DNA of 64,000 nucleotides from Xestospongia bergquistia. Its lineage: Eukaryota; Porifera; Demospongiae; Haplosclerida; Petrosiidae. This document shows positions 1,338 through 64,000 of this stretch, one piece after another. A program made the translations under genes and the position numbers. Each line of letters opens with the position of its first letter. The stretch's first letter is position 1. The stretch lies in NCBI GenBank assembly GCA_963965975.1, contig OZ014414.1:3571501-3635500 (forward strand), read 5' to 3'. The notes under the pieces were generated by a model. The model searched no databases. It was not told where the DNA came from and saw only the letters and a program-made list of their open reading frames with translations.

Positions 1338-1400
1338 GAGCACTTTACAGAGTCCGATATAATCCTAATTATTTTGGTCCCACTGAAATATCTGATTCAG
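1338..1400 (+). CDS. Linker exon of copy A, between Death-fold and GTPase exons
   Basis: This 63-nt exon is bounded by a GTGTAG acceptor and a CAG|GTATAT donor. It reads open with two bases completing an upstream codon, giving ALYRVRYNPNYFGPTEISDS plus one base. That base joins the first two bases of the exon at 2912, so the frame runs straight into the GTPase. The paralogous exon at 53483-53539 has the same borders, the same phase and the same ending, EISDS. Conservation of borders and phase between diverged copies is the main support. The exon has no recognised domain; it probably links the N-terminal Death fold to the GTPase. Confidence 0.6.
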
Positions 1401-2911
1401 GTATATATAATATGTCAATACATTATGTTAACTGATACACTGAACATTTACTGTAGTATTATAATTATAGCTTCTTCCTATGTGAGATGTTATATATTAC
1501 TTATTTACTTGTCATACCAGACAGCCCTATAATTGTTTTTAAACAATTTTCTTTTACTTGTTCTGAATTAACTTTAGTTAAAAATGTTAGTGATTTCCAG
1601 TACTACCACACTTTATTCATTGTATTAACTAGCAATCCTACACATTCCAGGATACTAAGTAGTCCCTAATACTGGACAAATGTCGACACTGAGTATCCTC
1701 AAATTTGATAATGGCTGTCTTTAGTGCATATATCTTCCTAAATAGCAAGTGTCACTGGTACATTTTGATATGACCCCATGTCAAGAGATATGCACTGTAG
1801 TACATCCTGAAATGGTCAATTTATGAGCCTAGTACATACATATCCATTAATACCAGTATCACTGGGTAGTTTGTATATCCTAGGATGCTCGGTCTCAGGA
1901 ACCCAGCCATACCTATGTATCACTTACTACTGAATATCCCTTGGTTCTTATTACAGCCTGGGATGATTCATTTAGGGGTTCATTTTGGAGCCCAGTTCAT
2001 ATATATCCTTTAGTGCTATGTTCATGGTACTTAGTTCATCCTAGGATGGATGATCCTTAATTGCCCAGTCCGTGTGGGTTTATCCGTTAATACAAAGTAT
2101 CCCTTGATGCTTGCCATTTCCTGGTATGGTTCATTGAGGGATTCACTTTTTTGAGTGCGTGTCATATATTATATATCTTTTACTATTAAGTATTCCTGGA
2201 TATCAATTCTCACCATTAGCTCTACCAGGACTATTAATGATAAAATCCTCAACAAATACTTGTTTTTGATATTGATACTCCCTTGTCACTATTTCTAGGT
2301 CAGCATGTGTAGGTTTCCAATTTGTTTTGGTGATTTCTCTTTCTAATCACAAGATATAAAATCTTTACTGTGTTATAATATAAATTATTAATCAATATAC
2401 TAGTGGCTTATTATCACAACATTACATCCACTGATTTAATAAAAAGGATTAATATAAACCAAGTATACTTGTCACCTTAATGTAAACACTATTGTATAAG
2501 CTTTTGTGAACTTATAAGTAACAATGAAAGTTCAAACATTACATACCCCACTACTGCAAACATGTTTGTAATTATTACTGACATTAAGACTCCAGTCAAC
2601 TGTACATTTGTCCACTTTATATTGTAGTGTGTAGCCATATAAATTTATGTCTTATTGTAACCATACCCACAAGTTCCATCCTTTCTTAGTCTATTATTTA
2701 TTGTAAATGGACACAAAGAGTTATGACTTAAACTGGACAATAGGAACTGACTAAATTCTAGTTAGTATTAAATGATTGAATTAAAAATTTATAATATATA
2801 TAATTTATAGCTACCAAATTTAGAAGGCTAATCAGTATAATGTATTATGTAATCCTTATTAACATTGTTTACTTAAATCAAAGTTTGAATTTTGTGTCTG
2901 TTATATATTAG
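1401..2911 (+). other. Intron of copy A, shared with other copies
   Basis: This is intronic sequence without a supported exon. Blocks of it recur near 22080-23520 and 53560-54170, and inverted near 36380-37650. It is part of the duplicated gene unit and not unique DNA. Confidence 0.6.
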
Positions 2912-4888
2912 ATGCTAACAAAAAGTTACTGGACAAGGCTATGAAAGAAGGCTATGTCACTGTTAAGTGGACCAAGTTTTCTGTCTCAGGTGCTCCTGGA
3001 ACTGGTAAATCATCCTTTTTAAACCTACTTTATAATGAAGACCCTCCAGATTGCCATACCAGTAATCCAGTAATTACTGCAAAAGAAGCAAGGATCATAT
3101 CTGCCACTGTAGGTGATGATTCTGTGTGGAAAAAAATAGACCATGAGACTCTTAAAGAAATAATTGCTCAAGGAATTAAACATAGCATCCGACCTCACCA
3201 ATCTATAGAGTCATTAGAGGAATCAGTTGATCACCAAACAGACAGCGAGAACTTTGAATCATCAACCACATTGCGACATCAAAGCTCTTCTTTTCCTGAA
3301 CCTACTATAACTCAGGAAATTATTGATCTCTTACCTCAAACACAGAAGTCTGAAGAGCTTTATCAATCTCATTGGATATATGGTATTGATACTGGTGGTC
3401 AGGCTGCATTTATAGACATTGCTCCAGCTTTGTTACGATATCACTCTGTCAATATTCTCACACATAAGCTAGACGAAAAACTTAATGACAAAGCAAAGTT
3501 CTTCTTTAGTATTAAGGGAAAGCAAATTGGTGAGCCTGTAGAAAAACAGATCACAAATATAGAACTTCTTCAATCATCATTTTGCTCAGTGTTGTCAGTA
3601 GATTTTCCCAAGTTACCAAGCATCCATATCAAACATGTTCAAAAACCCTATTACATAGTACTAGGAACATTCTTGGATAAAATGCTGGAGTCTAGTGAGT
3701 CTCTTGAAACCAAAAATGCTATACTCTCAACAATTTTAGAAAAATTTAGGGAAGTCACAATTATGTATCGTACAGCTGGAAATAAAGCAATATTTCCTGT
3801 CAACACTACTGCTAGAAGTGATTATGAGATAAATTTGGCTACTATGATTCGTATGAAAATCTGCCAATATTATATTGAGGCAGAAATCCCTATTCGATGG
3901 TTTTTGTTTCAACTTGAGTTAAATCATCTTCATAAATTTTCTAAATCTGGCATTGTAAGTCTATCTAAATGTTTAGAGATTGGTATGACCTTACAACTGA
4001 ACTCTAGAGAGGTCCATGCTGCATTGATGTATTATCATGACCTTACCATATTTCTTTATTTCCCTAAAGTCTTACCTAAGATAGTATTTCTTCATCCTCA
4101 ACCATTATTTGAGAGGTTGTCTGATTTAATTAGTATCTCTTTTGCTGATGCTGTTGATCATTTGGAAGAAGTAGGTGTCTCTTTATATAATCCTGCTGCT
4201 CATGGAGAATTAAAGGAAGAAGGAACATTTAGAGAAGACTTGTTGACATCACCCAATTCACATTTATCACAAGGATTCTATCCTGAGTTTACAGCACAAG
4301 ATTTTCTAAAATTAATGGAAAGTTTATATATTTTGGCTTCATTGCCAGACAATAAGTATCTTCTTCCTTCTGTCCTTTCTATCAAACAAGACACTAAATC
4401 TATCAAAGCTCAATTTAGTGAAGATATTGACCCACTTATTCTTACATGGGATGAGAAGCCACTTCCTCGAGGTGTCTTTCCTGCATTAGTTGCATACCTT
4501 CTACACAACAAAGGCTTGTTCAACTTTAAACTTCCTCCTTCAAAAGACTATCCACGTTATCGTAATGCAATGACATTAAGCTTTGATGATGGCTACATTC
4601 TTTTAGTTGATTCAATTACCTATATGGAAGTATTTTATTGTGGCCCATTAAACAAATGTCATGCTATACGTGAAGAAATTCTTATTGGCATTGTTAGTGT
4701 TATTGACAAGTTTTATTATATGACCACCATAAAAATTCCTGTTGAGCGCTTTTACTGTCCAAAATGCCCAAACAAAAATCAACGACATTTCTGTCGTCCT
4801 GATAAAGATTTGAAACACCTTGTTTGTTGTAACAGTCCTTACAGAACATATGTTGATGAACGTCAAAGGCACTGGTTTTCACCAGATA
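2912..4888 (+). CDS. Roc-COR-like GTPase exon, copy A (intact)
   Basis: One open exon of 1977 nt lies between a TATTAG acceptor and a GATA|GTAAGT donor. Counting from the ATG at 2941, a Walker A/P-loop GAPGTGKSS is at residues 17-25. A switch-like GIDTGGQAAF is near 148-157, the DxGGQ form typical of Roc GTPases. GTFLDK near 242 may be a degenerate base-recognition loop. A COR-like stretch follows from IPIRWFLFQLEL (about 317) to FLHPQPLFERL (about 383). A Cys/His cluster (CPKC, HFC, CC) at about 604-632 could bind zinc. The GTPase/COR reading is inferred from motifs and the 3' neighbour is a Death-fold exon, so the layout recalls Roc-COR-Death proteins such as DAPK1. A cytosolic signalling or innate-immune role is a guess. 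The gene probably starts left of the window. Confidence 0.75.
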
Positions 4889-5105
4889 GTAAGTTTAACA
4901 TATTGAAATATGTATAGATTGATTTATTAAAAATGCTGTTATTGTATTGATGGTGTAAATGTATATAATATTAATTCTTAGTTTACTAGAAAGAACATGC
5001 ACATCTACAGTATCTACAATATATAATTTTACAGAAGGTTTTTAATTAGTAAAATACACAGTATTTATTGTAATTTATACCATTTTATATTATCAACTTA
5101 TTTAG

Positions 5106-5398
5106 AGAGAACAACTAAGAAAGGCACATCTACTTCACTGGATGAGCTCTTAGCTCAGCAACCTCCAATTCTAGAAATAGCTACACATGCTAGAACAGCA
5201 GAATGGAATCATTTGGGTGTGATACTAGAACTGGATGATGTGGGTCTAGCTGGATGTCATGACTATATCAGTATGTATCAATTATGGTTACAGGAGAAAG
5301 CTGAAGAAGCAACAAGGAACAATTTATTAGATGCTTTAAGAGATATTGGACAGAATAATGTAGCATATCTATATGAAGAATATGTGAAATCATTGACA
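5106..5398 (+). CDS. C-terminal Death-fold exon, copy A
   Basis: The exon runs from a TTTAG acceptor to a GACA|GTAAGT donor. Its first two bases complete the codon left by the GTPase exon, and the frame is open throughout. It encodes about 97 residues with the pattern LLAQQPPILEIATHARTAEW, then LYQLW-like and LLDAL segments and a final YEEYVKSL. The short amphipathic helices and the conserved Trp fit a Death-superfamily domain, a homotypic interaction module. The same exon recurs at 19194, 25974, 60841 (minus) and 62586 (minus). The assignment to the Death superfamily is by pattern only; CARD or another Death-fold subfamily is possible. Confidence 0.65.
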
Positions 5399-6023
5399 GT
5401 AAGTTGATAGTAATTAATGTAATTGTATGTACAGGAGTGACATTGATACATAGTTATTGTGTGAATATTATAATATGTAGAATTATTCTTATTATTTATA
5501 TATGTATATTTTAATACATTGATATGGTAAAGTCAATTGTTCTTACATTATGTATATGAACACAACAGAAAAGAACCTATAGCCTATAGACAAAGCTTGA
5601 TTGTTCATCAAATTAAAGGAACTATATTCTTATCTACAAGCATGTACATTTGTATGATGACATTAACTTGATGATTTGTCTATCAAGGCAGCACTATATA
5701 TTCATGTACATGTAATTGAGTATATGCACACCATGTTGTTTTCTCTTTTGTTATGCATAATATAATCTAATGAACATCATCAACTTTCAACAGTTTGCAT
5801 AATGCAAGTGTTAAAAGAAACTGTAGGGTTTCTAACTTCATTAAAACATTAGTTAGAAACAACTTTGGAGTTTTAATATCCAAAGTACATATAACATTAA
5901 CTTGTCCAATATTTAAAATAACAAATTTTGCAATAAATAACCACAGTTTTATTATATTACAATAGCTATTGTATATTAGGTTAATTGTCTCTGGTTATCA
6001 AGTAGTATCTTTATTTAATATAG

Positions 6024-6105
6024 GGTGGACAAAACGAGTGTACCAAATATGTACAGTTGGGAGGTGCTGCTACAATGCAAGAGGATATACATGTAGGAGA
6101 CAATT
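6024..6105 (+). CDS. Small linker exon, copy A
   Basis: This 82-nt exon lies between AATATAG and AATT|GTAAGT. It starts in phase 0, as the preceding Death-fold exon ends, and leaves one base. It is open, reading GGQNECTKYVQLGGAATMQ and onward. The single leftover T joins the first two bases of the exon at 6605 to make a Cys codon, so the model stays in frame. A similar acceptor and start occur in inverted form near 61757, downstream of copy F. No domain is recognised. Confidence 0.45.
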
Positions 6106-6170
6106 GTAAGTATAATCCACATTATTTTTAGAATCATAATTTTAAAAAAATATATTTTAAGCTTAATTAT

Positions 6171-6418
6171 ATGTGACCTGATTTGCAGTAAGGGACCACT
6201 TCTGTCAAAATAATTGTGATGTGATTTATGAAAAAGGATCACTGCTAAAACATCTCAAAAACAGCTTGCTTACATAGATGCAGTCCATGAATAGTTATAC
6301 TTATATAGCAGCTATATGTATAAAAAATGTTTTAATGATTTTTTAAGTTGTCCTTTTTCATAAATCATGTCACAAATGCTTTGACAGAAGTGGTCCCTTA
6401 TTGCAAATTGGGTCACAT
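6171..6418. mobile_element. Palindromic MITE (248 bp)
   Basis: Long terminal inverted repeats of about 65-70 bp begin ATGTGACC and end GGTCACAT. Both arms carry AAGGGACCACTTCTGTCAAA or its complement. There is no coding capacity. This is most likely a non-autonomous DNA transposon in an intron of copy A; its family is unknown. Confidence 0.75.
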
Positions 6419-6604
6419 TTTTAAGTATAAGTATTATGGCAAGGAGTGTATTTATTGATTGCTACAGTCCAGAAGGAAACAATCAATTCTAGATCTGAGA
6501 TTATAGATCAGATATTCTAAATCTAGCTTTGACTATAATATCAGGAAACTTTAATATTATGGCTATTGTAAACCACAAGGCCTATTTTATTATTAATTTA
6601 ATAG

Positions 6605-8238
6605 GTAAGCAGCAGAAACAGAAGAAGCTTAAGCCTAGGTCAGAAAGACTTTATTCCAACCATTCAGAGTCTGAAACATCTAATGGATATGGTGAGGAGC
6701 AGACTAGAGGAAGATATCATGAAAGATCAGATATTAGCAAATCTTCATCAAAGAAGCACTTAAGATTATTATTGGAGAGAAAGAGAACTAAAGATAGTAT
6801 GCTAAAGTACTAAGTCTTATTATATTATTTATTTCCATAGGAAAGCAGTGGAAACAGAAGAAACTAAGTAGACCAGAAGAATTTTATTCCAACCATTCAG
6901 AGTCTGAAACATCTAATAGATATGGTGAGGAACAGACTAGAGGAAGATATCATGAAAGATCAGATATTAGCAAATCTTCATCAAAGAAGCACTTAAGATT
7001 ATTATTGGAGAGAAAGAGAACTAAAGATAGTATGCTAAAGTACTAAGTCCTATTATAATATATATTTCTATAGGAAAGCAGTGGAAACAAAAGGAACTAA
7101 GTAAAGCAGAAGAATTTTATTCCAACCATTCAGAGTCTGAAACATCTAATAGATATGGTGAGGAACAGACTAGAGGAAGATATCATGAAAGATCAGATAT
7201 TAGCAAATCTTCACCAAAGAAGCACATAAGATTATTATTGGAGAGAAAGAGAACTAAAGATAGTATGCTAAAGTACTAAGTCTTATTATATTATTTATTT
7301 CCATAGGAAAGCAGTGGAAACAGAAGAAACTAAGTAGACCAGAAGAATTTTATTCCAACCATTCAGAGTCTGAAACATCTAATGGATATGGTGAGGAACA
7401 GACTAGAGGAAGATATCATGAAAGATCAGATATAAGCAAATCTTCATCGAAGAAGCACATAAGATTATTATTGGAGAGAAAGAGAACTAAAGATAGTATG
7501 CTAAAGTACTAAGTCCTATTATAATATATATTTCTATAGGAAAGCAGTGGAAACAGAAGAAACTAAGTAAAGCAGAAGAATTTTATTCCAACCATTCAGA
7601 GTCTGAAACATCTAATGGATATGGTGAGGAACAGACTAGAGGAAGATATCATGAAAGATCAGATATAAGCAAATCTTCATCGAAGAAGCACATAAGATTA
7701 TTATTAGAGAGAAAGAGAACTAAAGATAGTATGCTAAAGTACTAAGTCTTATTATATTATTTATTTCCATAGGAAAGCAGTGGAAACAGAAGAAACTAAG
7801 TAGACCAGAAGAATTTTATTCCAACCATTCAGAGTCTGAAACATCTAATAGATATGGTGAGGAACAGACTAGAGGAAGATATCATGAAAGATCAGATATT
7901 AGTAAATCTTCATCAAAGAAGCACATAAGATTATTGTTGGAGAGAAAGAGGACTAAAGATAGTATGCTAAAGTACTAAGTCCTATTATAATATATATTTC
8001 CATAGGAAAGCAGTGGAAACAAAAGGAACTAAGTAAAGCAGAAGAATTTTATTCCAACCATTCAGAGTCTGAAACATCTAATAGATATGGTGAGGAACAG
8101 ACTAGAGGAAGATATCATGAAAGATCAGATATTAGCAAATCTTCATCAAAGAAGCACATAAGATTATTATTGGAGAGAAAGAGAACTAAAGATAGTATGC
8201 TAAAGTACTAAGTCCTATTATATTATTTATTTCCATAG
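6605..8238 (+). repeat. 233-bp tandem repeat with 466-bp higher-order period
   Basis: Unit starts are spaced exactly 233 bp apart from 6841 to 8239, and the first step is 236. Units alternate between two types (SRPEEFY and SKAEEFY), with two alternating intron variants (TCTTATTATATT and TCCTATTATAAT). This implies recent amplification as dimers. Each unit contains a whole exon plus its intron. Confidence 0.95.
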
Positions 8239-8459
8239 GAAAGCAGTGGAAACAAAAGAAACTAAGTAGACCAGAAGAATTTTATTTCAACCATTCAGAG
8301 TCTGATAGATCTCATCATCTATCACCTGAAAGTGACTTAGATTCATATGATAAATCAAGTGAATGTGACAAAAAACCAGCTAAAGGCAAGTCTTACAAGA
8401 GAAAAAGGACATTAGAGAAGAGAGTCTCAAAGACATCCAAAAAGAAACAAAAGCGTTAA
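6605..8459 (+). CDS. Tandem exon array coding the basic C-terminal tail of copy A
   Basis: Eight unit heads start at 6605, 6841, 7074, 7307, 7540, 7773, 8006 and 8239, each after a TAG acceptor. Each of the first seven can splice at TATG|GTGAGG to give an 84-nt (first 87-nt) phase-1 exon, ending SNHSESETSN[G/R]YG. Alternatively each can read on through GEEQTRGRYHERSDIS to a stop at MLKY*. The eighth has its own end, including KGKSYKRKRTLEKRVSKTSK and a stop at 8457-8459. All units are open in both readings. The tail is Ser/Lys/Arg-rich and looks like a nuclear-localisation or low-complexity region. The 3' exon of copy A is the likely owner, from phase agreement with 6024-6105. Which splice forms are used cannot be seen. 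Confidence 0.55.
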
Positions 8460-8491
8460 TTTGATTATGAATGTGTACTTCATTTTATATG

Positions 8492-8660
8492 TAGAGTAAA
8501 CTATTGATATTTGGACACCATGTATATTCGGATGTCTTCCCTCTTCAGTAGAAAAGAGAAGCAGTGAAACTGCTATATATAAATGTAGGTCATAGATAAG
8601 TATAACACTAGATGTGGAGAGCTGCCATTTTCAACTTTGCTCTTAGTCACAACGATCAGA
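8492..8660. repeat. Copy of the outer arm of the Tigger element at 44.4 kb
   Basis: This stretch matches about 44422-44590 closely, including TCGGA..CTTCCCTCTTCAG and AACACTAGATGTGGAGA. It may be one end of the element whose broken transposase lies on the minus strand at 10165-11399. The other end was not found. Confidence 0.6.
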
Positions 8661-8949
8661 AAATGAACAATTTTGGACCCATCTAATATTCCGAGTCAGA
8701 CTCTGGCTACTACTCACCTATTAAAGGAAGAAGATGATATTTAGTATTTTCATTAGCTCTATGCAGGTATTTACTCCAACGATATGATACACAAATACCT
8801 CCTCTTTCTAAGCATCTGCTGTTGTACACGAACTTCAGCACGCACCCCCAACGCTAAAAATCGGATGCCATTCATTTATCGTTTGCAGTATAATTACTCA
8901 CAAAAACTACATCTACTGACATTAATCACAAATAAAAATAAAGTCAGAT

Positions 8950-10040
8950 GAGTTTGGTTTTCTAGTACAATCTTCAGAATTGACTCTACCTCTAGTAAAA
9001 ATTGACTCTAAAATTGAGCAAACCAAATTTACAATGCTAGTTGTAATGTATCTTGCTCTGTAGAAACTCATGATCAGAATTGACTCCACCTCTCGTATGA
9101 CATTTTGAATTGACTCCACTTCTAGTAGGAATTTACTCTAAAATTGTGCAAACCAAAATCAATACAATGTTTGTTCTAATATACCTTCTTCTGTAGACAC
9201 TCAATTTGCAGTATGATCAGAATTGACTCCACCTCTTGTACGAATTGACTCTAAAATTGAGCAAACCAAATTTACAATGCTAGTTGTAATGTATCTTGCT
9301 CTGTAGAAACTCATGATCAGAATTGACTCCACCTCTCGTATGACATTTTGAATTGACTCCACTTCTAGTAGGAATTTACTCTAAAATTGTGCAAACCAAA
9401 ATCAATACAATGTTTGTTCTAATATACCTTCTTCTGTAGACACTCAATTTGCAGTATGATCAGAATTGACTCCACCTCTTGTACGAATCGACTCTAAAAT
9501 TGAACAAACTAAAATTACTACAATGCTTGTGTTAAATGTACCTTACTCTGTAGAAATTCCATCTGCAATATGATCAGAATTTTTACACCTCTAGTATGAC
9601 CTTCAGAATTGATTCCACCTCTAGTACAAACTTTAAAATTGACTCCACCTCTAGTACAACCTTTAGAATTGACTCCACCTCTAGTACAAATTGACTCTAA
9701 AATTGAGCTAACCAAAATGATTACAATGCTTGTTCTAAATGTACCTTTCTCTGTAGAAACTCCATTTGGAGTATGATCAGAATTGATTCAACCTCTAGCA
9801 CAACCTTCAGAATTGACTCCAACTCTAGTACGAACTTCAGAATTGACTCCACCTCTAGTATGACCTTTAGAATTGGCTCCAACTCTAGTACTAACTGACT
9901 CTAAAATTGAGCAAACCAAAATTACTACAATGTTTGTTCTAAATGTACTTTGTTCTGTAGACACTGCATTTTCAGTATGATCAGAATTGACTCCACCTCT
10001 AGTACAATCCTCAGAATTGATTCCACCTCTAGTACAAATT
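8950..10040. repeat. Nested minisatellite (243-bp period over ~26-bp submotif)
   Basis: A long unit beginning TTGACTCTAAAATTGAGCAA starts at about 9001, 9244 and 9487, a 243-bp period, and continues in a more diverged form to about 10040. Inside it a short motif like GAATTGACTCCACCTCTAGT is repeated many times. The minus-strand ORFs here (CTRGGVNS repeats) are translations of the repeat and are not taken as genes. Confidence 0.9.
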
Positions 10041-16462: not shown

Positions 16463-16648
16463 AAGGGCATATATTTATACACGCGGAATACGTTGTAAAA
16501 AAGCGGAAGTCATATTTTTATAACCAGCTGAAAATTATTCATTATTGATTAAAACAGGAGTGTCTGTGGCTTTTAGAGTTTTGATTACTGGTGCTTTGAT
16601 CTTCTTTTGGACTCTGCTTTGATCTTCTTTGTCAAGTTTTTCTGTACA

Positions 16649-18582
16649 ATGGCAAGAATATTATCTAGGAAGGAAGTATTGGACCTTGTTCTTGATGATG
16701 ACTGCTTTGATGAACATGATAGTGAAGATGACTTTGATGGCTACATTGATGATGGTGAAATTGAAAGAATTACAAGACATAATGAATATGAGTATGATGA
16801 AGGTAATGAAGGTGGAAATGAAAAAGAAAAGGAATGTGAAAATTATGAAGATGAAAATGAAACAAACGAAGGTGATAATGAGTATGAAGCTGTTGAGTTG
16901 GATGAGGAGGAGGACAATGATAACTCAAATATTGAAAGCAATGAAAGTGATGATTTAATTCTTCCTAATTATTCTGCTTATCCTGGTGGGAGAGTTGACA
17001 TGACAAACAAAAAACCTGTTGATTTTTTTGACTTACTCATAACTGATGATATAATTGAAAAGATTGTCGATGAAACAAATCTCTATGCCAACCAGTTTCT
17101 AGAAAATAATGGTGAGCTCCCAAGATACTCTCGTGTCCATGTTTGGAAGAAGAAGGCCTTTTGTGCAGGTGAATTACTGAAGTTTTTGGGCATTATTCTG
17201 TGTATGGGTTTGATACGATATCCTAAGCTGGAGGATTATTGGTCTACTACGTGGCCTTTCCACATTCGTACATTTTCTGACGTAATATCTCGAGATCGTT
17301 TCTCTGTCATTCTAAAATTCTTTCATCTCAATGACAATTCAAACTTCATTCCCAAGGGTTCACCTGGCTATGATCCTTTGTATAAATTACGACCACTATT
17401 AGAACCTCTTTTAAGAAATTTCAGGTGTAACTTCATTCTAGGAAAGGAGTTATCAGTAGATGAGCAAATGGTCAGCTATAAGGGGAGACTGTCCTTTCTG
17501 CAGTATATACCTAAAAAGCCAACTCGATGGGGCATGAAAGCTTTTGTCTTGGCAGACTCACACTATGGATATATATATAACTGGAAGCTATATACAGGTT
17601 AGAATTAGTCATTTATGCAACATGCATATATATTATAAATTATATAGGAAAAGACGAATCTCTGGATATTACTACCTATACAAAAGTTACCCATGCAGTA
17701 GTTATGAAAGTAATTGAAGGCCTCGAATTAAAAGGACATCATATATACATGGATAACTACTACTCGAGCCCAAATCTCTTCCATGATTTGCATGAAAAGG
17801 GTTTCGGAGCATGTGGAACTGTTTCAGTTAATAGAATGGGGATGCCTAAAGAATGGCAGAAAAAGAAAACATGTAAAAGGACAAAAGAGGATAATATAAT
17901 AAAGGAGTTACCACCACTAAAAAAAGGAGAAGTAAGAATCAAAAATTTAAAAGGCAATTTGAAGGCTTTACAGTGGAAAGACAAGAGGGTTGTTACGATG
18001 ATCAGTACTATCCACGATGATACAATGATTCATAAGACTAGGAGAAGAAAGTTAGCTAATGGAGGACGGGAAGAGGTGATGAAACCTGTTATGGTTGAAG
18101 AGTACAATAGACACATGGGGGGTGTTGATAAAGCTGACCAAATGCTGTCGTATTACAGCTTTTCTCACAGGACCATCAAATGGTGGAAAAGGGCAGCATT
18201 TCATCTCATTGAGGTAGCTGTAGTTAATAGCTACATATTATATAAACTGTCTGATCAAAGTGGCCGTTATCTAACTCAAAAAGAATATATAACAGAACTC
18301 GCAAGAGAGTTAGTTGAGAGAGGAGGACACTTACAGTCAACTTCTCAAAGTCAACTCTGTGTTGAATCTCCAATTCGTCTTACTGATCGACATTTTCCGT
18401 CCAAGATTGAAGATCGAACAACTGGGAAACCACATCAGAAAGACTGTTGTGTATGCAGCAAAAGACAAACCTTTGGACGGAAGACAACAACATACAAATG
18501 TAAGCAGTGTGATGTACCATTGTGCGTCGTACCTTGCTTCGAACTTTATCATACATACAAAGACCCCAAACGACACTTATAA
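16649..18582 (+). CDS. piggyBac transposase, two exons (16649-17597, 17648-18582)
   Basis: The start is the ATG at 16649 (MARILSRKEVLDLVLDD). An open stretch upstream has no earlier ATG in frame. A 50-bp phase-1 intron (ACAG|GTTAGA to ATATAG|GAAAAG) is needed to pass the stop at 17600, and both exons then join in frame to give about 627 residues. The N-terminus is strongly acidic (Asp/Glu-rich to about residue 110). The four catalytic acidic residues of piggyBac are present: SVDEQM (Asp near 271), YMDNYYSS (near 352) and GVDKADQM (near 477 and 480, three apart as in the family). The C-terminus has a Cys-rich cross-brace zinc motif with CCVC, CKQC and PLCVVPC. The enzyme excises and inserts at TTAA in the nucleus. 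All key residues are present, so it may be active. Confidence 0.92.
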
Positions 18583-20900: not shown

Positions 20901-23522
20901 ATATATTTTGTATTGGATGTGTACACATGCATAGTTGACAGTATTATAACATTCAACATATATACATGTATACTGACTGATATAGATGTATATAATAGCT
21001 TAATCTATCTTGCTTTAGCTCCAATTATCCTTAAACTTGATACTTGCTGTGTTTAGTGTATGTATGTCCCTCAATACCAAGTATCACTGGTACATCTTGA
21101 TATGAACCTAACTCAAGAGATATACACATTAATCATATTATCAAATTACAGACAAAAATTCTAAACTCAAGAATGTCAATGTTGTATACCTCAGTATGAT
21201 GTTTGTCATAAGCTATATATCAAACCAAAATAATGTGCTTTTGTATACTGTTTTATCACCAAGTTAATGACTAGTTTTACAATCTTTACAATAATTAAAT
21301 CAGTTGTGAATTTAAAAATGAACATCTGAATTCCATGACCACTGCCCACTTTGGTCCTAAATACTGTTTACTCTCTTTTAAACTTTATAGCCAGCTATTT
21401 TGAGTGAATGTTTTAATTGTGACTTTGCATCTAGCAATATAATAACAGGATATAAAGAAAACATTTGTATACATGTATGTACATGTATTTATCTTCAGTA
21501 GCATAAAAGAAGAATAAGATTGATACAAACATGCATTTATGATGTTGTCATAACCAAATAGTTATATTTAGAATATTTCCAGTGGTTGTTGCTGTGTTTT
21601 TATTTAAGGATAGCACCAATTTCATTGTTATTCAAAGTAATAGAGGGATGTATTAGAAATCTTGGACTTTTGTAGATATTATCATTCAAAGAAATAGAGG
21701 GGAATGCTATTAGAGTGTGGGTTAGCCTCATTCACAGACTACCACACACCTTGAATGAAAAGACAGTCTAGTGCATTAGCTTCAAGTAATGTGATCAGTG
21801 TAACATTGGTAAACAAATGGAAAACATGTGATTGCTACTATTTCAGGCCTCTCAGTATTAGCTAATGTAGTAAGTTTATCTGTGTATTTTGTTTTTGGAA
21901 ATGATATCTCATGTATTAGTAACAGTAAGATAATTATAGTGATGTTATAAGTTGTTGATCATTGCTTCAGTGTAATCTTATCATTAAAACAAAGAGTTTT
22001 AATTATAACTTTATCAACAGGAACGGTAGTTTTCTATATAATATGTCAATGCATTATTTATGTTAACTGTTACACTGGACATTTACTGTAGTATTATAAT
22101 TATAACTTCTTCCCAGGACTAACTGATAGTTTTAAATTATCATAATAAACTATGTGAATAATAACAAAGGTCCTAAAATAGTATTAGATTAGATACAAAT
22201 GCTCATGTAAGAGAATCTATATTACTTAATTTACTTAGCATACCAGGTAGTCCTATAAATGTGTTTTAATAAACAGGTTTCTTTCACTTTATCTGATCTT
22301 TCTTCAGAAAAGAGTGATATCCAGTACTACCACATCTTGTCCTTTGTACTAATTAACAATCCTATATATCCCAGCATAAAGTAGACTGGACCAATGTCAA
22401 CACTGAGTATCCTTAAATTGATACTGGATGTGTTTAGTACATGTATGTTACTCAATGCCAAGTGTCACTGTTATGTCTTGATATGACCCCAACTCAAGAT
22501 GTATATACATTCCTTAGTGCTATCCCTAAACACTGGTATCACTGGATATTTAGTACATCCTGGGATGCTGAGTTTCAGGAGTCTATGTATCAATCAAATA
22601 ATACTGGGATGGCTTATTCAAAGGTTCATTTTGGAGCCCAGTACATTTGTTTCCCTTAATACTATGTTGTTGATTCTTAGCACCTCCTGGGATGGTTCTT
22701 TATAGCCCAGCTCTGCATGTGTATGTGTCTGTTAATACCAAGTACTCCTTGATACTTATTACATCTTGGGATTTTTTATTCAGGACTTCCTTTTTCAGTC
22801 CATATCACATATAGTCCTTAATATTAACTATTCCTAGATATGGATTCTCACCATTCTCAATAAAGTTTAGTGTATGAGTAACTCTACCAGGACCATTACT
22901 GATAACATCCTCAACAAATACTTATTTTGGCTTCTCATACACCCTTGTCAATATATCTAGGACAGCATGTGAAAGTTTCCAAGTTGTTTCAGTGATATCT
23001 CTTTCTAACTACAAGACTGTATAACTTTGCAGTGCTAATATAATTATTGATCATTATACTAGTGGCTTATTGTAACAACAATTATCACAACATTACACCC
23101 ATTGATTTAATAAAATGTGTTTAATATAAACCAAAGTACACTTGTCACCTTAATATGAACACTACTGTATAAGCCTTTGTGAAAATTTTGAAATTGTGAC
23201 TCCAGACAACTGTACATGTGTCCATTTTTATGGTAGCCATATAAATTTATGTTCTATTGCAACCACACCCACAAGTTCTGTCACTTTGGTTCACTCTATC
23301 ATCTATTGTACATGTACACAAAGAGTTATGACTTGTACTTCTTAAACTGACAATAGGAACTGACTATATTTAGCTATATTCTACCTATAGTATTATAGGA
23401 TTGAATTGGAAAAATATAATATCTATAATTGTAACTACCAAATTTAAAAGTCTAATCATTATAATAAGTTAACATTGTTTGCTTATATCAAACTTTGAAA
23501 CTTTACTTCTATTACATGTTAG
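20901..23522 (+). other. Upstream intron/flank of copy B, duplicated
   Basis: Large parts match 1440-2910 (plus), 36380-37700 (inverted) and 53560-54170. No intact exon is seen. A linker exon equivalent to 1338-1400 was not found. Confidence 0.55.
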
Positions 23523-25483
23523 GCACTAACAAAAAGTTATTGGCCAAAGCAATGAAGAAAGGTTATGTCACTGCTAAGTGGACCAAGTTTTCTGTCTCAG
23601 GTGCTCCTGAAACTGGCAAGTCATCCTTTTTAAACCTACTTTACAGTGAAGATCCTCCAGATTGCCATAGGAGTACTCCAATAATTGCAGCAAAAGAAGT
23701 AAGGATTATAACTGCTACTGTAGGTGACGATTTTGTTTGGAAAAAAGTAGACCGTGACTCACTTAAAGCAATAATTACTCAAGGAGTAAAACACAGCATT
23801 CGACCTCAGAAGTAGTAGAGAAACATGGCTCATCAATAAACAAGGTACTAAACCAGCCATTAGAGGAATCAAGTGATCATCCAACAGATCAACAAGAAGA
23901 AACATCAGATAGTGACTGGACATGATCACACAGTTGATCAGAGCTCTTTATCAAAACCTACTATAACTCAGGAAATCATAGACCTCTTGGCCTGTGTAGA
24001 GAAGTCAGAAGAGCTTTATCGATCTCATTGGATATATGGTGTTGATACTGGTGGTCAGGCTGCTTTTGTAGATATTGCTCCTGTTTTGCTACGATATCAT
24101 TCCATCAATATTCTTACACACAAACTAACTGAGAGGCTTGATGACAATGCTAAGTTCTTCTATAGTGTTGAGGGAAAGTTAATTGGTGAGCCAGTAGAAA
24201 AACAGATCACAAATTTACAACTTCTTGAAAGTTTGTTTCGCTCAGTATTGTCAGTAAATTTTCCTGTATTACCAAACATTTGTGTTAAACACATTCAAGA
24301 ACCCTTCTACATAGTACTAGGGACATAAAATGATTGAAGCTTATGAGTCTCTCCAAACAAAAAATACAGTTCTCTCAACAACTTTAGAGAAATATCGACA
24401 AATCACAATTATGCATCGCAGAGCTGAAAATGAAGTAATTTTTCCAGTCAATACTATTGGCAGAGGTAATGATGAGTTAAAAATGGCTAATAGGATTCGG
24501 AAGAAAATCTGCCAATATTATATTGAGGCAGAAATCCCTATTCGATGGTTTTTATTTCAACTTGTGCTCCAAACATCTTCTAAATCCAACATTGCAAGTC
24601 TGTCTAATTGTTTAGAGATTGGTATGAACTTACAAATGAGTGATAGTGAAATTCAAACAGCTCTAAACTATTACCATGACCTGACCATCTTTCTGTACTT
24701 TCCTAAAATCTTATGTAATGTGGTTTTCCTTTATCCATAACCACTTTTCAAGAAACTCTATGATATCCCTATACATAGTTATGCTGCTCATAAAGAACTA
24801 AAAATGAAGGAACATTTAAAGAAGACTTGATGACATCACCCAATTCACATTTATCACAAGAATTCTATCCTGAGTTTACAGATTTTCTCAAATTAATGAC
24901 AAGTTTATTTATAATAGCCTCTTTACCTGAGAAAGAAAAGTATTTCCTTCCCACAGTTCTTGCTACAACATCTTTCACTGACTACAAGTCCATGCCATCT
25001 CCTTTTAAGGAACACATTGATCCTCTAGTTCTGTCATGGGATATGAAGTCTCTTCCTTAAGGTGTATTTCCTGTATTAGTTATAAACCTTCTACATTGTA
25101 AATATCAGCCGAGATTTCAACTTAAAAGTCCTCTACGTTCCACACCACATTATTGTAATGTCATCACTTTACAAACTAATTATGGTGATGTTCTTTTAGT
25201 TGATGGAATTTATTGGATTGCAGTATATTATTCAGATCCTTACAAAAGATGTAGTACTATGTGTGAAGTTGTTCATGCAGGAATTCCTGAGGTGATACAC
25301 AAATTTCAATATATGTCTAACATAGGAAATCTTGAGGAATACTTTTATTGTATGTTTTGTTCCAATAAAACTACAGAACATTTCTGTCAGTTAAAGAAAG
25401 ACAAAAAACACTCATATGCTGTGAAAGCTGTACTTCTAATGTTATTGATAAAACTTGTCAGCAACCTTGGGTTTTCGTTAACG
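23523..25483 (+). pseudogene. Roc-COR-like GTPase exon, copy B, broken
   Basis: This is homologous along its whole length to 2912-4888, with the acceptor (TGTTAG) and donor (ACG|GTAACT) kept. The P-loop reads GAPETGKSS, which still fits GxxxxGKS. The Roc-like motif is GVDTGGQAAF. There are adjacent TAG TAG stops near 23813, a stop after YIVLGT near 24327 with lost sequence, further stops near 24738 and 25058, and several frame changes. The C-terminal Cys cluster is present but shifted. It cannot make the full protein. Confidence 0.85.
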
Positions 25484-25973
25484 GTAACTTTTGATTTATT
25501 GTAACAATACATATATTACTAATTTATAATCATTATTATATTTAAAGTCAAAAATAAACATTATCTCTCATCCTTCTATGACTTGTGTGAAAGACATCCT
25601 GCCAATTTAATACCAAATCATTAGATCATCTGACCAACTCAAAGTATTATATATTATTTGTAAATACATGTTAGAACATACAGTTATGATATATATAATA
25701 AATTATATACATGATCACATAATGATTTCTTTATTATGTTACACTTTTATAAACAAGTACTATTATGATAATGAGCCGCTTTTGTTAAAAAGCACTTTCT
25801 CAAATCAATAATTATTAAATTGAACGTACTTTGATTAAAGAACAATTGACAATATAAAAGTACCATAGTGTTCCTACTGCCTGTACTGTCTTTGTTGTAT
25901 TATATACTTTCCATAAAGGTGTTATTAACATTACTGTCTTTAAAACATTAGTATAGTTTATTATACTTGATAG

Positions 25974-27891: not shown

Positions 27892-28383
27892 TTAATTTGG
27901 CAGTTTGTGTTCCATTAGTCCCATACTCAATCGTAGAGTTTCGAACCTTCCTTTATTCAGTGGCTTGGTCAGTATGTCAGCAATCATGTCACATGTTGGA
28001 CAGTATCTCAGCTCAATTATTCTCTTCTGTAAAACCTCACAAACATAGTGGTAACGAATATCAATGTGCTTTGTCCTTGCATGTATAATGGAATTTTTAG
28101 CGATGGCAATGTCCCCTTGATTATCTTCCATCAGCACTGTTGGTGTGCTAGTGCTCACTTTCAAGTCTGACAATAACCTTCTCAACCAAGTTGCTTCTTG
28201 AGTAGCTGCACTAAGTGTCACATATTCAGCTTCAGATGTTGAGAGTGCAACAACTCCTTGCTTATTGCCCAACCAGTCAATTGATCCTCCGGCCATTATG
28301 AACAAATTTCCAGTAGTTAAATGACGATCATCTAAGTCTCCAGCCCAATCTGCATCTGAGTATCCAATCATTTGTTTCTGCAT
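27892..28383 (-). pseudogene. copia RNase H domain
   Basis: It is open for 163 residues, with MIGYSDADWAGDLDDRH, STSEAEYVTLSAATQEA, MEDNQGDIAIAKN and TKHIDIRYHY, followed by a stop close to the LTR. The acidic Asp-Glu-Asp residues of copia RNase H are present. It is one frame away from the RT segment upstream (28546-28328 overlaps), so the polyprotein is broken between them. Confidence 0.9.
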
Positions 28384-29290
28384 ATTTTAGTGCTAGATTA
28401 ACTGTACCTTTGAGATACCTCAGAATCCTTTTTACAGCTGTCAGGTGTACCTCTGTTGGTTTGGAGTTGAATTTCGACACCACTCCTACAGCATGAGCAA
28501 TATCAGGGCAAGTTGCTGTGGCAGCATATAACAAACTTCCAACCATTGATTGATACTTGTTTGGATCAACTGCTTTGCTAACACCATCATCCTTTTTCAG
28601 CTCATTATTGACATCAGCTGTAATTGAAACAACTTTAGAGTCAGCAAATCCATACTTCTAAGGCATCTTTAAAATGTACTGTTTCTGGTGTACCCAGATG
28701 CACTTCTGGTCTTTGTCTGGCTCAATACTAATTCCAAGACAGTAATGGAGAGGTCCCATGTCTTTCATCTTGAATTGTGTTGCCAGGGTTTCTTTTATTC
28801 TCATCATTTCCTCTGGAGTTTTGGTGATTACAATGAGATCGTCCACATAGACTGCAACGATAGTAATTGTGTCAGCTATTTGGATGTAGACACACGGGTC
28901 AGCAGTACTCTGTTTGAATCCAATGGACTCCATGTACTGTCTAAATGCTGTGTTCCAGCATCGTGGTGACTGCTTGAGACCATACAGCGATTTTTTCAGC
29001 TTGCATACCAGGTGCCTTTTTCCAGGTTGGACATAACCTTCTGGTTGCTCCATGTATATCTCCTCTTCTAGACTCCCATTGAGAAATGCTGTCACCACAT
29101 CCATTTGATGAATCAACATATCGTTTTCAACTACAAAAGCTAATAGTGCCCTGATTGATGAGAATTGCACCACTGGTGAGAAAGTTTCCTCATAGTCAAT
29201 CCCATACTTCTGAGCATAACCCTTAGCAACTAAACGACCTTTGAACCACTCCACTTTACCATCATTTCCGTGTTTGACCTTGAATACCTA
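28384..29290 (-). pseudogene. copia reverse transcriptase
   Basis: The segment 29254-28658 is open, with GRLVAKGYAQKYGIDYEETF, HQMDVVTAFLNGSL, LVCKLKKSLYGLKQSPR and the catalytic AVYVDDLIV. A stop near 28660 ends it, and a second piece (SLLYAATATCPDIAHAVG) lies at 28546-28384 in another frame. The catalytic residues survive but the frame does not. Confidence 0.92.
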
Positions 29291-30543
29291 CCTGCATCCA
29301 ATAGGTTTGCGACCACTAGGTAGTTCTACTAGGTCCCATGTTTCATTTTTCATGAGTGACTTGTACTCCTCATCAGCAGCTGCTTTCCATTCTTTGGCAC
29401 AATCACCAATAAGAGCTTCTTCTATGCTTCTAGGTTCATTGATTTGACACACATGATAGGCAACATGATGAACTTCATCATCCACTGATGCCACATCTGC
29501 ATACTCGTCTTGACCATTTCTCACAGGTGGTCTCCTCTGGCGTTCCATACGACACTGATCTTCATTCTGTTGTTGTTGTTTCTCTTTTTTAGTTGTTCGT
29601 CTTTCTCTTCATTTGAGTCAGTATTCACTTCCACTATGTACTTTGACTTGGTTACTTCTCTGAGTCCAAAGTCTGTTTCATTGAATATCACATCATGTCT
29701 TATGACCACTTGTGAATTTGTTTTATCCAACAGCCTGTACCCTTTTGACTCCTTACAGTACCCAACAAAACGAAGTTTTTCTGACTTCTTGTCTAATTTC
29801 TGTTGCTTATTATCTGGAATATGAGCATAGGCAATACACCCAAACACTTTTTCAGGTGACCAATATTTGGTTTCCTTCAATACCATTGCTCATATGGTGT
29901 TGTATTTTTATCAACAGCTGTTGTTGATGTTCTATTTTGAATATACGCTGCTGTGGCAACTGCTTCTGCCCAATACTTGTCGGATAGTCCAGCATGAGCT
30001 ATCATAGATCGAGCTGAATCCATTAGTGTTCAGTTCATACATTCAGCTACTCCATTTTGTTCCGGTGTGTGAGGTACAGTCAGCTCATGACATATTACCT
30101 TTGACTTTAGATAAGTCTTGAATTCTCTCGACAAATACTCTCCACCATTGTCTGTTCGTATGGCTCCAATTCTTTGGCGACAATCATCTGTAGTGAGGGC
30201 CTCAAATTCTTTGAATTTTTGAACATTTCTGACTTGTATTTAATGAATTAAACAGCACAGCAATGTGAATAATCATCGATAAAGGTTACAAAATTTCGTT
30301 GCCACCAATTGATTCTGTGGGCATTGGTCCACAAACATCACTATGTACCAATTGAAGCTTTCGGGTCAAACGTATTTCTCCCACTGGCTTAAATGGGGCT
30401 CGATGATTTCCTTCCACACATCCTTCATATAATGACAACTTCGATGCTTTTGAGAATCTCATTCCAGTTGCCAATTTCTTCTGAACAATTTCTTGGAGTT
30501 GTTGTCGATTCACATGCCCTAGCCTTTGATGCCACAGATCCAT
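29288..30543 (-). pseudogene. copia GAG-pre-integrase and integrase
   Basis: MDLWHQRLGHVNRQQLQE starts the His/Cys zinc region. Integrase core motifs appear in alternating frames: HSDVCGPM (first Asp), IRTDNGGEYL (second Asp) and HTPEQNGVAE (Glu). Past the core, YWSPEKVFGCIAYAHIP and KLRFVGYCKESKGYRL are the C-terminal integrase region, followed by the linker to RT (ALIGDCAKEW). At least three frame changes and several stops are present. Confidence 0.88.
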
Positions 30544-31300
30544 CTCATTTGTTTCTTTGATGCTGTTGCAACTGAGGCTTGTTTTTGAGAGATGGCAGGT
30601 TCACAGTCCAAGTGATACATCTTTCCTGTTAACGAACCCATACCAGATAGCTTTCCTTTCCTGTCTCTGATCCAGCATCTGAATTTACCAACTTTTACAA
30701 TGTTTCCCCTTGCCCATACCAGATAGCTTTCCTTTCCTGTCTCTGATCCAGCATCTGAATTTACCAACTTTTACAATGTTTCCCCTTGCAGCTGCTGCTC
30801 TCACAGAAAAAAAATTGCAGGTCAGCTTGGGAATGTACAGTACTTCATGAATGATGGACTTCTTTGGCTTACTCATTTTAAATAGCATGTTAACCCTAAC
30901 TTTTCTAATGCCAGCAGCATTGACCACACGATTATTGCCCAACCCGACCTTCTCTGGCTTCTCGAATTCACAGTAATCTGACAACAGTTCTTTATCCTGT
31001 GTCATGACTTGATGCTCCAGAGTCCACAAGCCATTTGTCCTTTTGAGAGGAGTCCTCTGAGCCAAGTGACACTGCAAACACTCATGGACTGGCTGAATCC
31101 ACGTCTGAATGTTTTTCTTCTGCAGGTTTAGCTCTATGTGTAGGTCTTGGTCGTTCTTGTTCTTTCTTTCTTGAGCAGTTACAATGAAAGTGACCTTCCT
31201 CACCACAATCAAAACACTTGAGCCTACTTGCTTGCTTTGTTCTCTTCTGATGAGCTCCCACTAGCGCTGAGGCTGTGCCATGATTGACACTAGACAACAT
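30544..31300 (-). pseudogene. copia gag zinc knuckle and protease region
   Basis: CFDCGEEGHFHCNC near 31225 is a CCHC knuckle. The retropepsin region follows. The protease active-site triplet can be read near 31014 only in a different frame from its surroundings, so there is a small indel there. Then come LLSDYCEFEKPEKVGLGNN and IHEVLYIPKLTCNFFSV. The region also contains an internal tandem duplication. It is inactive. Confidence 0.8.
30637..30788 (-). repeat. 76-bp tandem duplication inside copia protease region
   Basis: The block starting CCCATACCAGATAGC at 30637 is repeated at 30713, so the GNIVKVGKFRCWIRDR segment appears twice on the minus strand. The length 76 is not a multiple of three. 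Confidence 0.9.
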
Positions 31301-46229: not shown

Positions 46230-46530
46230 TTAGAAAGTACTTGCTCTAAAAAGTCCTTTACTGGTTCAGCCCCTATTGGCAGTTCTCAATCTACATCAAA
46301 TAATCCCACTGAAGGTAGGTATTTACATAATTCATCTTAAGTCTAGCACCTTGTCAACCAGTATCAAATGAAGGTATTCTTATATTATACTGCAATTAGG
46401 TTGCTCGTTGCTTACAATACCTGAAGAACTAGAGAACAGTTTAAATGAAGGTATAGTGTTAACTTATTGAATTAGGATATATACCACAACAGTTACTACA
46501 GGTATCTCCAAGTCTACAATAGGTGAGTTT
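46230..46530 (+). pseudogene. Small exons of the Tigger C-terminal tail
   Basis: Candidate exons sit between good splice sites: 46233-46313 (ESTCSKKSFTGSAPIGSSQS), about 46400-46450 (GCSLLTIPEELENSLNEG) and about 46501-46521 (GISKSTIG). Each starts after AG and ends before GTAGGT, GTATAG or GTGAGT. Ser/Thr-rich. They precede the 66-nt exon array. Confidence 0.45.
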
Positions 46531-46567
46531 GTCTTGTATCTTTTAATTATTCATTATAATAATCTAG

Positions 46568-47091
46568 CTGCTAGTACTTAGTATCGGACATGTTCTCAGT
46601 CTCAAAAGGCAACCACTGTCAAGACTCCAAAGGGTAAGTTTGTCTGTTATCTTCCATTATTATTCATTATTAAATAATCTAGCCTCTAGTACTCGGTCTC
46701 TGAGATGTTCTCAGTCTCAAAAGGCAACCACTATCAAGACTCCAATAGGTCAGTTAGTCTGTTACCTTCTATGTTATTCATTGTTATAATAATTTAGCCT
46801 CTAGTACTCAATCTCAGACACGTTCTCAGTCCCAAAAGGCAACCACTGTCAAGTCTCCAATAGGTCAGTTTGTCCGTTATCATCTGTATTATTCATTGTT
46901 ATAATAATCTAGCCTCTAGTACTATGTTACGGACATGTTATCAGTCTCACAAGGCAACCACTGTCAAGTCTCCAATAGGTCAGTTTGTCTGTTATTTTGT
47001 ATTATTCATTGTAATAATAATCTAGCCTCTAGTACTCAGTCTCAGACACATTCTTAACGTCAAAAGACAACCATTGTTGAGTCTCCAATAG
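46568..47091 (+). repeat. Array of five 66-nt exons (115-bp period)
   Basis: Exons lie at 46568-46633, 46683-46748, 46798-46863, 46913-46978 and 47026-47091. Each is exactly 66 nt in phase 1, after (T)CTAG or TTTAG and before GTAAGT/GTCAGT/GTATAT. The consensus is ASSTQSQTRSQSQKATTVKS followed by PIG. Some copies have point stops (TTAG in the first, TAA in the fifth). The introns are duplicated as well. Confidence 0.85.
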
Positions 47092-47155
47092 GTATATATA
47101 ACATATATTGCTCACTTGCAATAATATTTTTTATAAAAAAGTACTGCATTTGTAG

Positions 47156-62501: not shown

Positions 62502-62585
62502 GATTAAAGTCAGTTAATACTCTGAAGCTATTTATAGCTAAGGTGTTCACTCTATCTACATGTATACATTGACAATGTAACTTAC

Positions 62586-62854
62586 CATTGTCTTCAGATA
62601 ATCTTCATAAATCATAGCTACATTGTTCTGTTTAATAGTTCTTAAAGCATCTAACAAACTCCTTCTTGTTGCTTTATCAGCTTTCTCTTGAATCCATAAC
62701 TGATACATACTAGTTAAACTATGACATTCAGCTAGATTGACACTGTCCAGTTGAAATTGTGTGCCCAATTCATTCCACTTTTCAATTCTAGCATGTGTAG
62801 TTATTTCTTGAATAGAAGGTTGTTGATCCAAGAGTTGATCCAGTGACATATTAT
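62586..62854 (-). CDS. C-terminal Death-fold exon, copy F (intact)
   Basis: The exon lies between a TTGATAG acceptor (62855 side) and an AATG|GTAAGT donor. It joins the GTPase exon in phase 1 and leaves phase 0, as in copy A. It is open for about 89 residues: MSLDQLLDQQPSIQEITTHA, WNELGTQFQLDSVNLAECHS, MYQLWIQEKADKATRRSLL and YEDYLKTM. This is the best-preserved example of this exon with 5106-5398. Predicted Death-superfamily fold, protein-protein interaction. Confidence 0.7.
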
Positions 62855-63190
62855 CTATCAAATATAATAAAATATAATAATAATGTTTTAAGACAGTAAT
62901 GTTAATAAAAACTTTATAGAAAATACATAATACAACAAAGGCAATACAGGTAGTAGGAACCCTATGGTACATTCAGACTTTTGTATTGTCAATTGTTTCT
63001 TTAAATAAAGTACTTTCATATAATAACACTGTGTTATTAGTCAGATGATCTAATGATTTGGTTATTAAATTGGGAGGATGTCTTTCATACAAGTTAGAGG
63101 CAAATGAGATAAATTTTTTATTTTTAACTTTAAATATAATCATAATTATAATTAGTAATATATGTATTGTTATAGTAAATCAAAACTTAC

Positions 63191-64000
63191 AATTCATGGA
63201 AAACCAAGGTTGCTGACGAGTTTTATCAATAACATTAGAAGTACAACTTTCACAGCATACAATTGTTTTCTTGTCTTCTTTTATCTGACAGAAATGTTCT
63301 GTAGTTTTATTGGAACATATGGTACAGTAAAAATATTCCTCAAGATTTCCTATGTTAGAAATGTGTTGAAAGTTTTGGGTCACCTCACCAATTCCTGTAT
63401 GGACAACATCACGTATAGTACTACATCTTTTATAGGGATCTGAATAATATACTGCAATCCAATAAATTCCATCAACTAAAAGAACATCACCATAATTAGT
63501 TTGTAAAGTAATGACATTACGATAACGTGGAGTGGAACGTAGAGGACGTTTAAGTTGAAACCACAGATGATCTTTATGACGTTGAAGGTTTACAACTAAT
63601 GCAGGGAATACACCTTGAGGAAGAGGCTTAATATTCCATGACAGAATTAGAGGGTCAACATCGTTAATAAAAGGAATGGTCATTGATCGTGTGAGATTAG
63701 CAGTTGGAAGAACAGTGGGGATGAAGTATTTCCCTTGTTCAGGAAGGGAGGCAAAAATGAATAAACTTGTCATCAACTTAAGAAAATCATTTACTGTAAA
63801 GTCAGAAGAGAATCCTTGTGATAAATGTGGATTGTGTGATGTCAACAACTTTTCTTCAAATGTTCCTTGTACTTTTAGTTCTTCATGAACTCCAGGTTCA
63901 TATAGATCAATACACTCCTCCTCTAAGCAATCAATAGCATCAGCAAAAGAGATACTGATTAAAGCAGAGAGTTGATCAAAGATTGGCTGTGGATGAAGGA
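63191..64000 (-). CDS. Roc-COR-like GTPase exon, copy F (3' part; runs off window)
   Basis: The minus strand is open from the window edge (LHPQPIFDQLSALISISFAD) to a GAATT|GTAAGT donor at 63191. It covers the end of the COR-like region, HLSQGFSSDFTVNDFLKLMT, PLPQGVFPALVVNLQRHK and the Cys/His cluster FYCTICSNKTTEHFC with VCCESC. It aligns without gaps of note to 4084-4888 of copy A and has no stops. The P-loop half lies beyond 64000. It joins the Death-fold exon at 62854 in frame, so copy F may be functional. It points opposite to copy A. Confidence 0.78.

Follow-up and report, generated by a model that had tools for sequence, protein, structure and literature searches.

Which splice site closes each copy of a coding exon that is repeated head to tail near the end of a gene, and are the copies used one by one or all together? 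This question is raised by an array within a window of 64,000 nucleotides (C4:3571501-3635500), which is part of a 146-Mb assembly of 21 contigs from an animal-like genome, probably that of a sponge; all comparisons were made within that one assembly. Tandem Repeats Finder reported a period of 233 bp at 6577-8312 (7.4 copies, 94% matches, score 3067), and the array is a tandem repeat of an exon-bearing unit. Eight unit heads were located at 6605, 6841, 7074, 7307, 7540, 7773, 8006 and 8239. A preliminary description had placed the eight heads at a strict distance of 233 bp, which applies to six of the steps, the first one being 236 bp with three additional bases in unit 1. The sequence TATG|GTGAGG is present in all seven non-terminal units (offset 84, but 87 in unit 1) and is followed in each by an open read-through to a stop after MLKY, just as had been described. 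Unit 8 lacks this donor and has a different ending.

Pairwise, units 2-7 differ at only 2-12 of 233 positions, and the openness of all copies is therefore weak evidence by itself. Two unit types alternate perfectly within units 2-7 at four columns (31, 33, 218 and 222) and partially at four further columns (17, 21, 210 and 229), thus supporting the earlier proposal of growth by 466-bp dimers.

The array is preceded by four exons with compatible phases. The gene model begins at the exon 1338-1400 and covers the gene from there on. The predicted features are:

1338..1400, + strand: upstream coding exon, phase 1 out (TCA G|GTATAT), joining the next exon in frame without a stop
2912..4888, + strand: large exon with the P-loop GAPGTGKSS and a Roc-COR-like region, phase 1 out (GATA|GTAAGT)
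5106..5398, + strand: Death-domain-like exon, phase 0 out (GACA|GTAAGT); PF00531 match under the cut-off
6024..6105, + strand: short pre-array exon, phase 1 out, last base T (AAT T|GTAAGT)
6605..6796, + strand: module exon of unit 1, 192 nt, the sole unit enterable in frame from exon 6024-6105
6692..6697, + strand: GTGAGG of unit 1, the donor of the preliminary description, read here as within-exon codons GGT GAG G
6925, 7158, 7391, 7624, 7857 and 8090, + strand: GTGAGG at the equivalent place in units 2-7
6797..6840, + strand: array intron 1, 44 nt (GTATGC...CCATAG), holding the MLKY stop and TACTAAG
6841..7029, + strand: module exon 2, 189 nt, phase 1-1, from in-silico splicing
7074..7262, + strand: module exon 3, from in-silico splicing
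7307..7495, + strand: module exon 4, from in-silico splicing
7540..7728, + strand: module exon 5, from in-silico splicing
7773..7961, + strand: module exon 6, from in-silico splicing
8006..8194, + strand: module exon 7, from in-silico splicing
8239..8459, + strand: terminal exon, a module head followed by a Lys-rich end and the stop TAA

In-silico joining of these exons from 1338 to 8459 yields 1,319 codons in one open frame, whose only stop is the final one. With GATA|GTATG as donor the array resolves into seven in-frame modules, seven 44-nt introns and the terminal exon, all of them open; no stops or frameshifts were found in the seven modules. Exon and intron had been proposed to be copied together, and indeed the unit consists of one exon and a 44-nt intron in the frame of the gene. 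The earlier statement that splicing keeps the frame is also borne out, as the module exons (192 nt and six times 189 nt) are symmetric with phase 1-1, and so is the 84-nt version that ends at GTGAGG.

Entry into the array is restricted by the last base of exon 6024-6105. This terminal T forms TGA with the initial GA of units 2-8 in 7/7 cases and TGT with the GT of unit 1, so that units 2-8 are not enterable from this exon. A free choice of one array copy is thus impossible in frame, and a direct splice from exon 6024-6105 to units 2-8 was rejected as a candidate. Later exons, if translated, therefore depend on a donor within a unit. The pre-array exon ends in T in the window copy (A) and in paralogs B and C, and unit 1 of these three begins with GT rather than GA, avoiding TGA. 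Paralogs F, G, H and I have an adenine at the end of the corresponding exon, which suggests that A, B and C share two coupled changes, the exon-end T and the initial GT of unit 1. The pre-array intron of A, B and C also holds an approximately 250-bp MITE-like element (6168-6421 in the window), which matches its own reverse complement, occurs at many genomic places and is skipped in the alignments of F, G, H and I.

Apart from the array, the gene resembles those for Roc-COR proteins with a Death-like domain, on matches that are weak but consistent. PF00531 (Death) was matched at 5108-5404 with an E value of 3e-4 and 21.2 bits, below the curated cut-off of 22.6; the paralogous exon at 62559-62972 reaches 24.7 bits and lies above it. 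With an E value of 0.0045, a profile of 12 paralog pieces matched LRRK1 in its COR region; among the single pieces, COR-A was matched weakly in one of the 12 (E 8.8e-5) and Roc weakly in three (best E 0.026). The previous assignment to a Death/GTPase gene is upheld on such matches. Six window sequences served to model the structure of the GTPase exon, but the result was too poor to use (mean pLDDT 36.9, pTM 0.26). Further paralogs of this GTPase/Death gene are located in the window at 23468-25504 (+ strand, pieces in several frames) and at 62559-63998 (- strand, a Death exon and part of the GTPase gene).

The gene product probably ends in a long repetitive tail. As predicted, this tail runs for 514 residues from the start of module 1 up to the stop, 170 of them Lys, Arg or His and 82 Asp or Glu, and the 63-codon module has a high content of Lys, Ser, Arg and Glu. 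No Pfam family was matched by the module or by the terminal exon. As a guess, such a tail would be flexible, basic and, with its many serines, phosphorylatable.

Two phase-1 sites compete for the end of the module exon, GTGAGG and, 105 nt downstream of it, GATA|GTATGC. Donors were scored with a matrix built from 18 housekeeping donors, which themselves range from 1.0 to 8.1. GTGAGG scores 4.0 and lies inside this range, whereas GATA|GTATGC scores -1.6, below all 18; splice-site strength thus speaks for the GTGAGG donor. A second matrix, to which donors of the exon family had been added, was set aside since it contained the site AAAAAAG|GTATGA of paralog F, a rejected candidate. A third candidate, AAA|GTACTA at the end of the unit, was rejected (phase 2, score -2.6). 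Intron length was compared with 18 CCT introns, which span 42-109 nt, 17 of them at most 70 nt. A 44-nt intron is accordingly normal for this genome, and the 149-nt intron that the GTGAGG donor implies is longer than all 18. TACTAAG, if it is the branch point, sits close to the GTATGC donor, a point against that donor.

Conservation and substitutions distinguish the two sites in the other direction. GATA|GTATG is kept in 13/13 units of the five paralogs A-E and GTGAGG in 11/13, being absent from the units of D and E, where GACA|GTGAGT (score 1.0) is an alternative candidate donor. A comparison of substitutions between units had been suggested as a check. Behind GTGAGG, units 2-7 vary at eight sites, six synonymous and two non-synonymous (P 0.001-0.008 under neutrality for kappa 1-4), while the unit head carries one synonymous and four non-synonymous changes. 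The variable sites behind GTGAGG fall on third positions in 6/8 cases for units 2-7 (P 0.020), in 7/9 for units 1-7 (P 0.008) and in 8/11 when B and C are included (P 0.009). As the variation is mostly synonymous, the half of the unit that had been regarded as intron looks coding, an excess resting on eight sites; the outcome disfavours an 84-nt exon. Nevertheless, the density of variable sites behind GTGAGG (8/105) is not much below that of the intron (4/44). Furthermore, dN/dS behind GTGAGG ranges, in comparisons with D, from 0.30/0.62 (A1-D1) to 0.34/0.34 (C1-D1, about 1), and values of up to about 1 toward D and E indicate weak constraint there.

Related Lys/Arg/Ser exons occur on contigs C3, C4, C13 and C15 and form a family with the array unit; in this family, GGTAAGGAA or GGTGAGGAA encodes a conserved within-exon motif. 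From 32 motif rows 14 representatives were picked by hand, with 15 near-duplicates and three rows with Asp for Gly excluded. In these representatives the motif G-[KE]-[EK]-P-A-[SG]-G-R-P-Y continues beyond the GGTAAG/GGTGAG site, where it is conserved as protein: 175, 247 and 377 pairwise differences fall on the first, second and third positions of the codons. Donor-like sites are found farther downstream in some members (CATAAAG|GTATAG in L066, CATAAAG|GTAAAT in K), and member M has GTGAGG followed downstream by AAAAAG|GTAAAA. AAAAAAG|GTATGA of paralog F was rejected as a family exon end, because the F exon is open to AGAG|GTATAG. One family member forms a separate array:

C3:7521600-7524800: array K (L053), period about 272 bp, five 222-nt exons and 44-51-nt introns

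Its changes (7 synonymous, 22 other) and the two stops in its unit 5 suggest neutral evolution and decay, and the C3 array was rejected as independent proof of constraint. Stops are also present in some other family members.

Copy number differs between the paralogs: seven modules precede the terminal exon in the window (A), three in B and one in C. Paralog B (C4:3310733) is 99.4% identical to the window over 4,232 bp and has four heads; its near-identity starts only past the P-loop. Paralog C (C4:3114624) has two heads and a GTPase exon split into three frames, and in F the GTPase exon is full-length. D and E carry one diverged unit and then a terminal-like exon that continues to the donor-like AAGG|GTAAAT. 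Their unit head contains an in-frame stop unless an extra 59-nt intron is assumed. Both have MTNY in place of MLKY, D without the TAA, which does not favour the MLKY stop as the protein end. Unit B2 carries a Ser-to-Pro change (column 141) that otherwise occurs only in A3, and it has four differences from A3 and also four from A7. Because of this shared change, part of the array is probably older than the split of A and B, units having been lost or gained since.

The reading towards which we lean, with confidence a little beyond even, is a tandemly duplicated exon with its 44-nt intron, spliced in order at GATA|GTATGC into seven modules and a terminal module. According to this, head-to-tail duplication would have multiplied a 63-codon exon of 189 nt (symmetric, phase 1-1) together with its intron, close to the 3′ end of a gene of the Roc-COR/Death-like type. 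If the locus is transcribed, the copies would be spliced sequentially, unit 1 first and each ending at GATA|GTATGC, giving a protein with seven modules, of which 2-7 hardly differ and 1 has diverged further, and a Lys-rich terminal module. Copy number may have been altered by unequal recombination. The within-exon GTGAGG would be mainly coding (Gly-Glu-Glu), possibly acting also as a minor, frame-neutral alternative donor.

The preliminary description instead gave each unit two fates, an 84-nt exon that splices at TATG|GTGAGG or a stop exon read through to MLKY. The presence of the donor in 7/7 units, its score inside the range of the 18 true donors, and a preserved frame with a single stop at the end agree with this. 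The terminal exon is moreover unreachable in frame from exon 6024-6105 (TGA), so that some unit donor is needed if it is translated. We nevertheless regard this reading as unlikely: GTGAGG is not favoured as an exon end by its loss in D and E, by the 13/13 retention of GATA|GTATG, by the coding appearance of the half behind it, and by an exon family that is coding at, and reads through, this very site, while four of the five changes in the always-included head are non-synonymous. Nor is the MLKY stop kept. For the skip-or-stop switch, neither AATAAA nor ATTAAA was found within 6501-8719, and each unit is therefore without a canonical poly(A) signal of its own, which together with the family read-through does not favour such a switch. 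Both phase-1 donors might also be used, one codon base being left over at either site, so that modules of 28 or 63 codons would tune the length of the tail by alternative 5′ splice sites. Gly at the internal site is encoded by GGT in 13/14 representatives, the second motif Gly by GGT in only 1/11, a difference that would suit a family-wide internal donor (G|GTAAGG or G|GTGAGG) that is frame-neutral and maintained as a nucleotide sequence, allowing each module two lengths, 28 codons in the window for the short form and 63 for the long one. On the other hand, the Pro codon CCA is nearly as fixed (12/14) and shared ancestry may explain both; four of the 32 motif rows are without GT there (L066, L069 and L078 with GAT, L080 with GGA). 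A nucleotide-level donor kept by the family appears doubtful to us, as does the use of both sites in the array. The two-length model is still a serious rival on account of the weak GTATGC, the strong GTGAGG, the 13/14 GGT codons, a dN/dS of about 1 in C1-D1 and the neutral C3 array. If it were true, near-identical exons could supply a multi-module gene of a two-donor family with many different tail lengths, all in frame. Finally, the protein might end in unit 1, the rest being a neutral satellite or a decaying gene end. The weak GTATGC donor, the decaying C3 array and the damaged or partial paralogs B and C would fit; the synonymous bias of the internal units, seven modules without stop or frameshift and the co-occurrence of the exon-end T with the GT of unit 1 in A, B and C make this quite improbable.

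In accounts of tandem exon duplication in animal genes (PMC9013439; Exonize, PMC12343006), homologous exons lie next to each other with introns and are frame-compatible. With copy numbers that change as in a minisatellite, the array is such a duplication, gene growth of a known type: seven modules and a terminal exon with a module head, each with predicted splice signals, are adjacent in one gene, and the module exons are a multiple of 3 in length with equal phase at both ends. Unlike in mutually exclusive arrays of the DSCAM1 type, copies 2-7 are nearly identical and probably all included. The exon-bearing kringle VNTR is likewise a tandem unit with coding sequence and variable copy number. 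The kringle VNTR unit also contains introns. Here the unit is 233 bp with one exon and a 44-nt intron, its module is not a kringle (no Pfam match), and the copy-number variation observed is one between paralogs of a single assembly rather than between alleles. Roco (Roc-COR) proteins with a Death domain resemble the gene in its weak COR/Roc matches and the Death-like exon downstream. To our knowledge, no repeated basic tail of this kind occurs in Roco proteins, and no such array was found among the literature matches listed. A coding exon with a 44-nt intron thus behaves like a minisatellite, with 1, 3 or 7 modules, in an immune-like gene family, and a coding motif Gly-Lys/Glu-Glu can mimic a 5′ splice site and mislead annotation.

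Other repeats were observed in the window. A minisatellite of 30-bp units (GAATTGACTCCACCTCTAGTA...), which also shows higher-order periodicity at 204 and 243 bp, extends over 8974-10038, and a tandem array with a 115-bp unit (5.1 copies) over 46509-47093. Transposon-like ORFs are located at 16577-18582 and 27892-31260, which we take to be piggyBac-like on the + strand and copia-like on the - strand.
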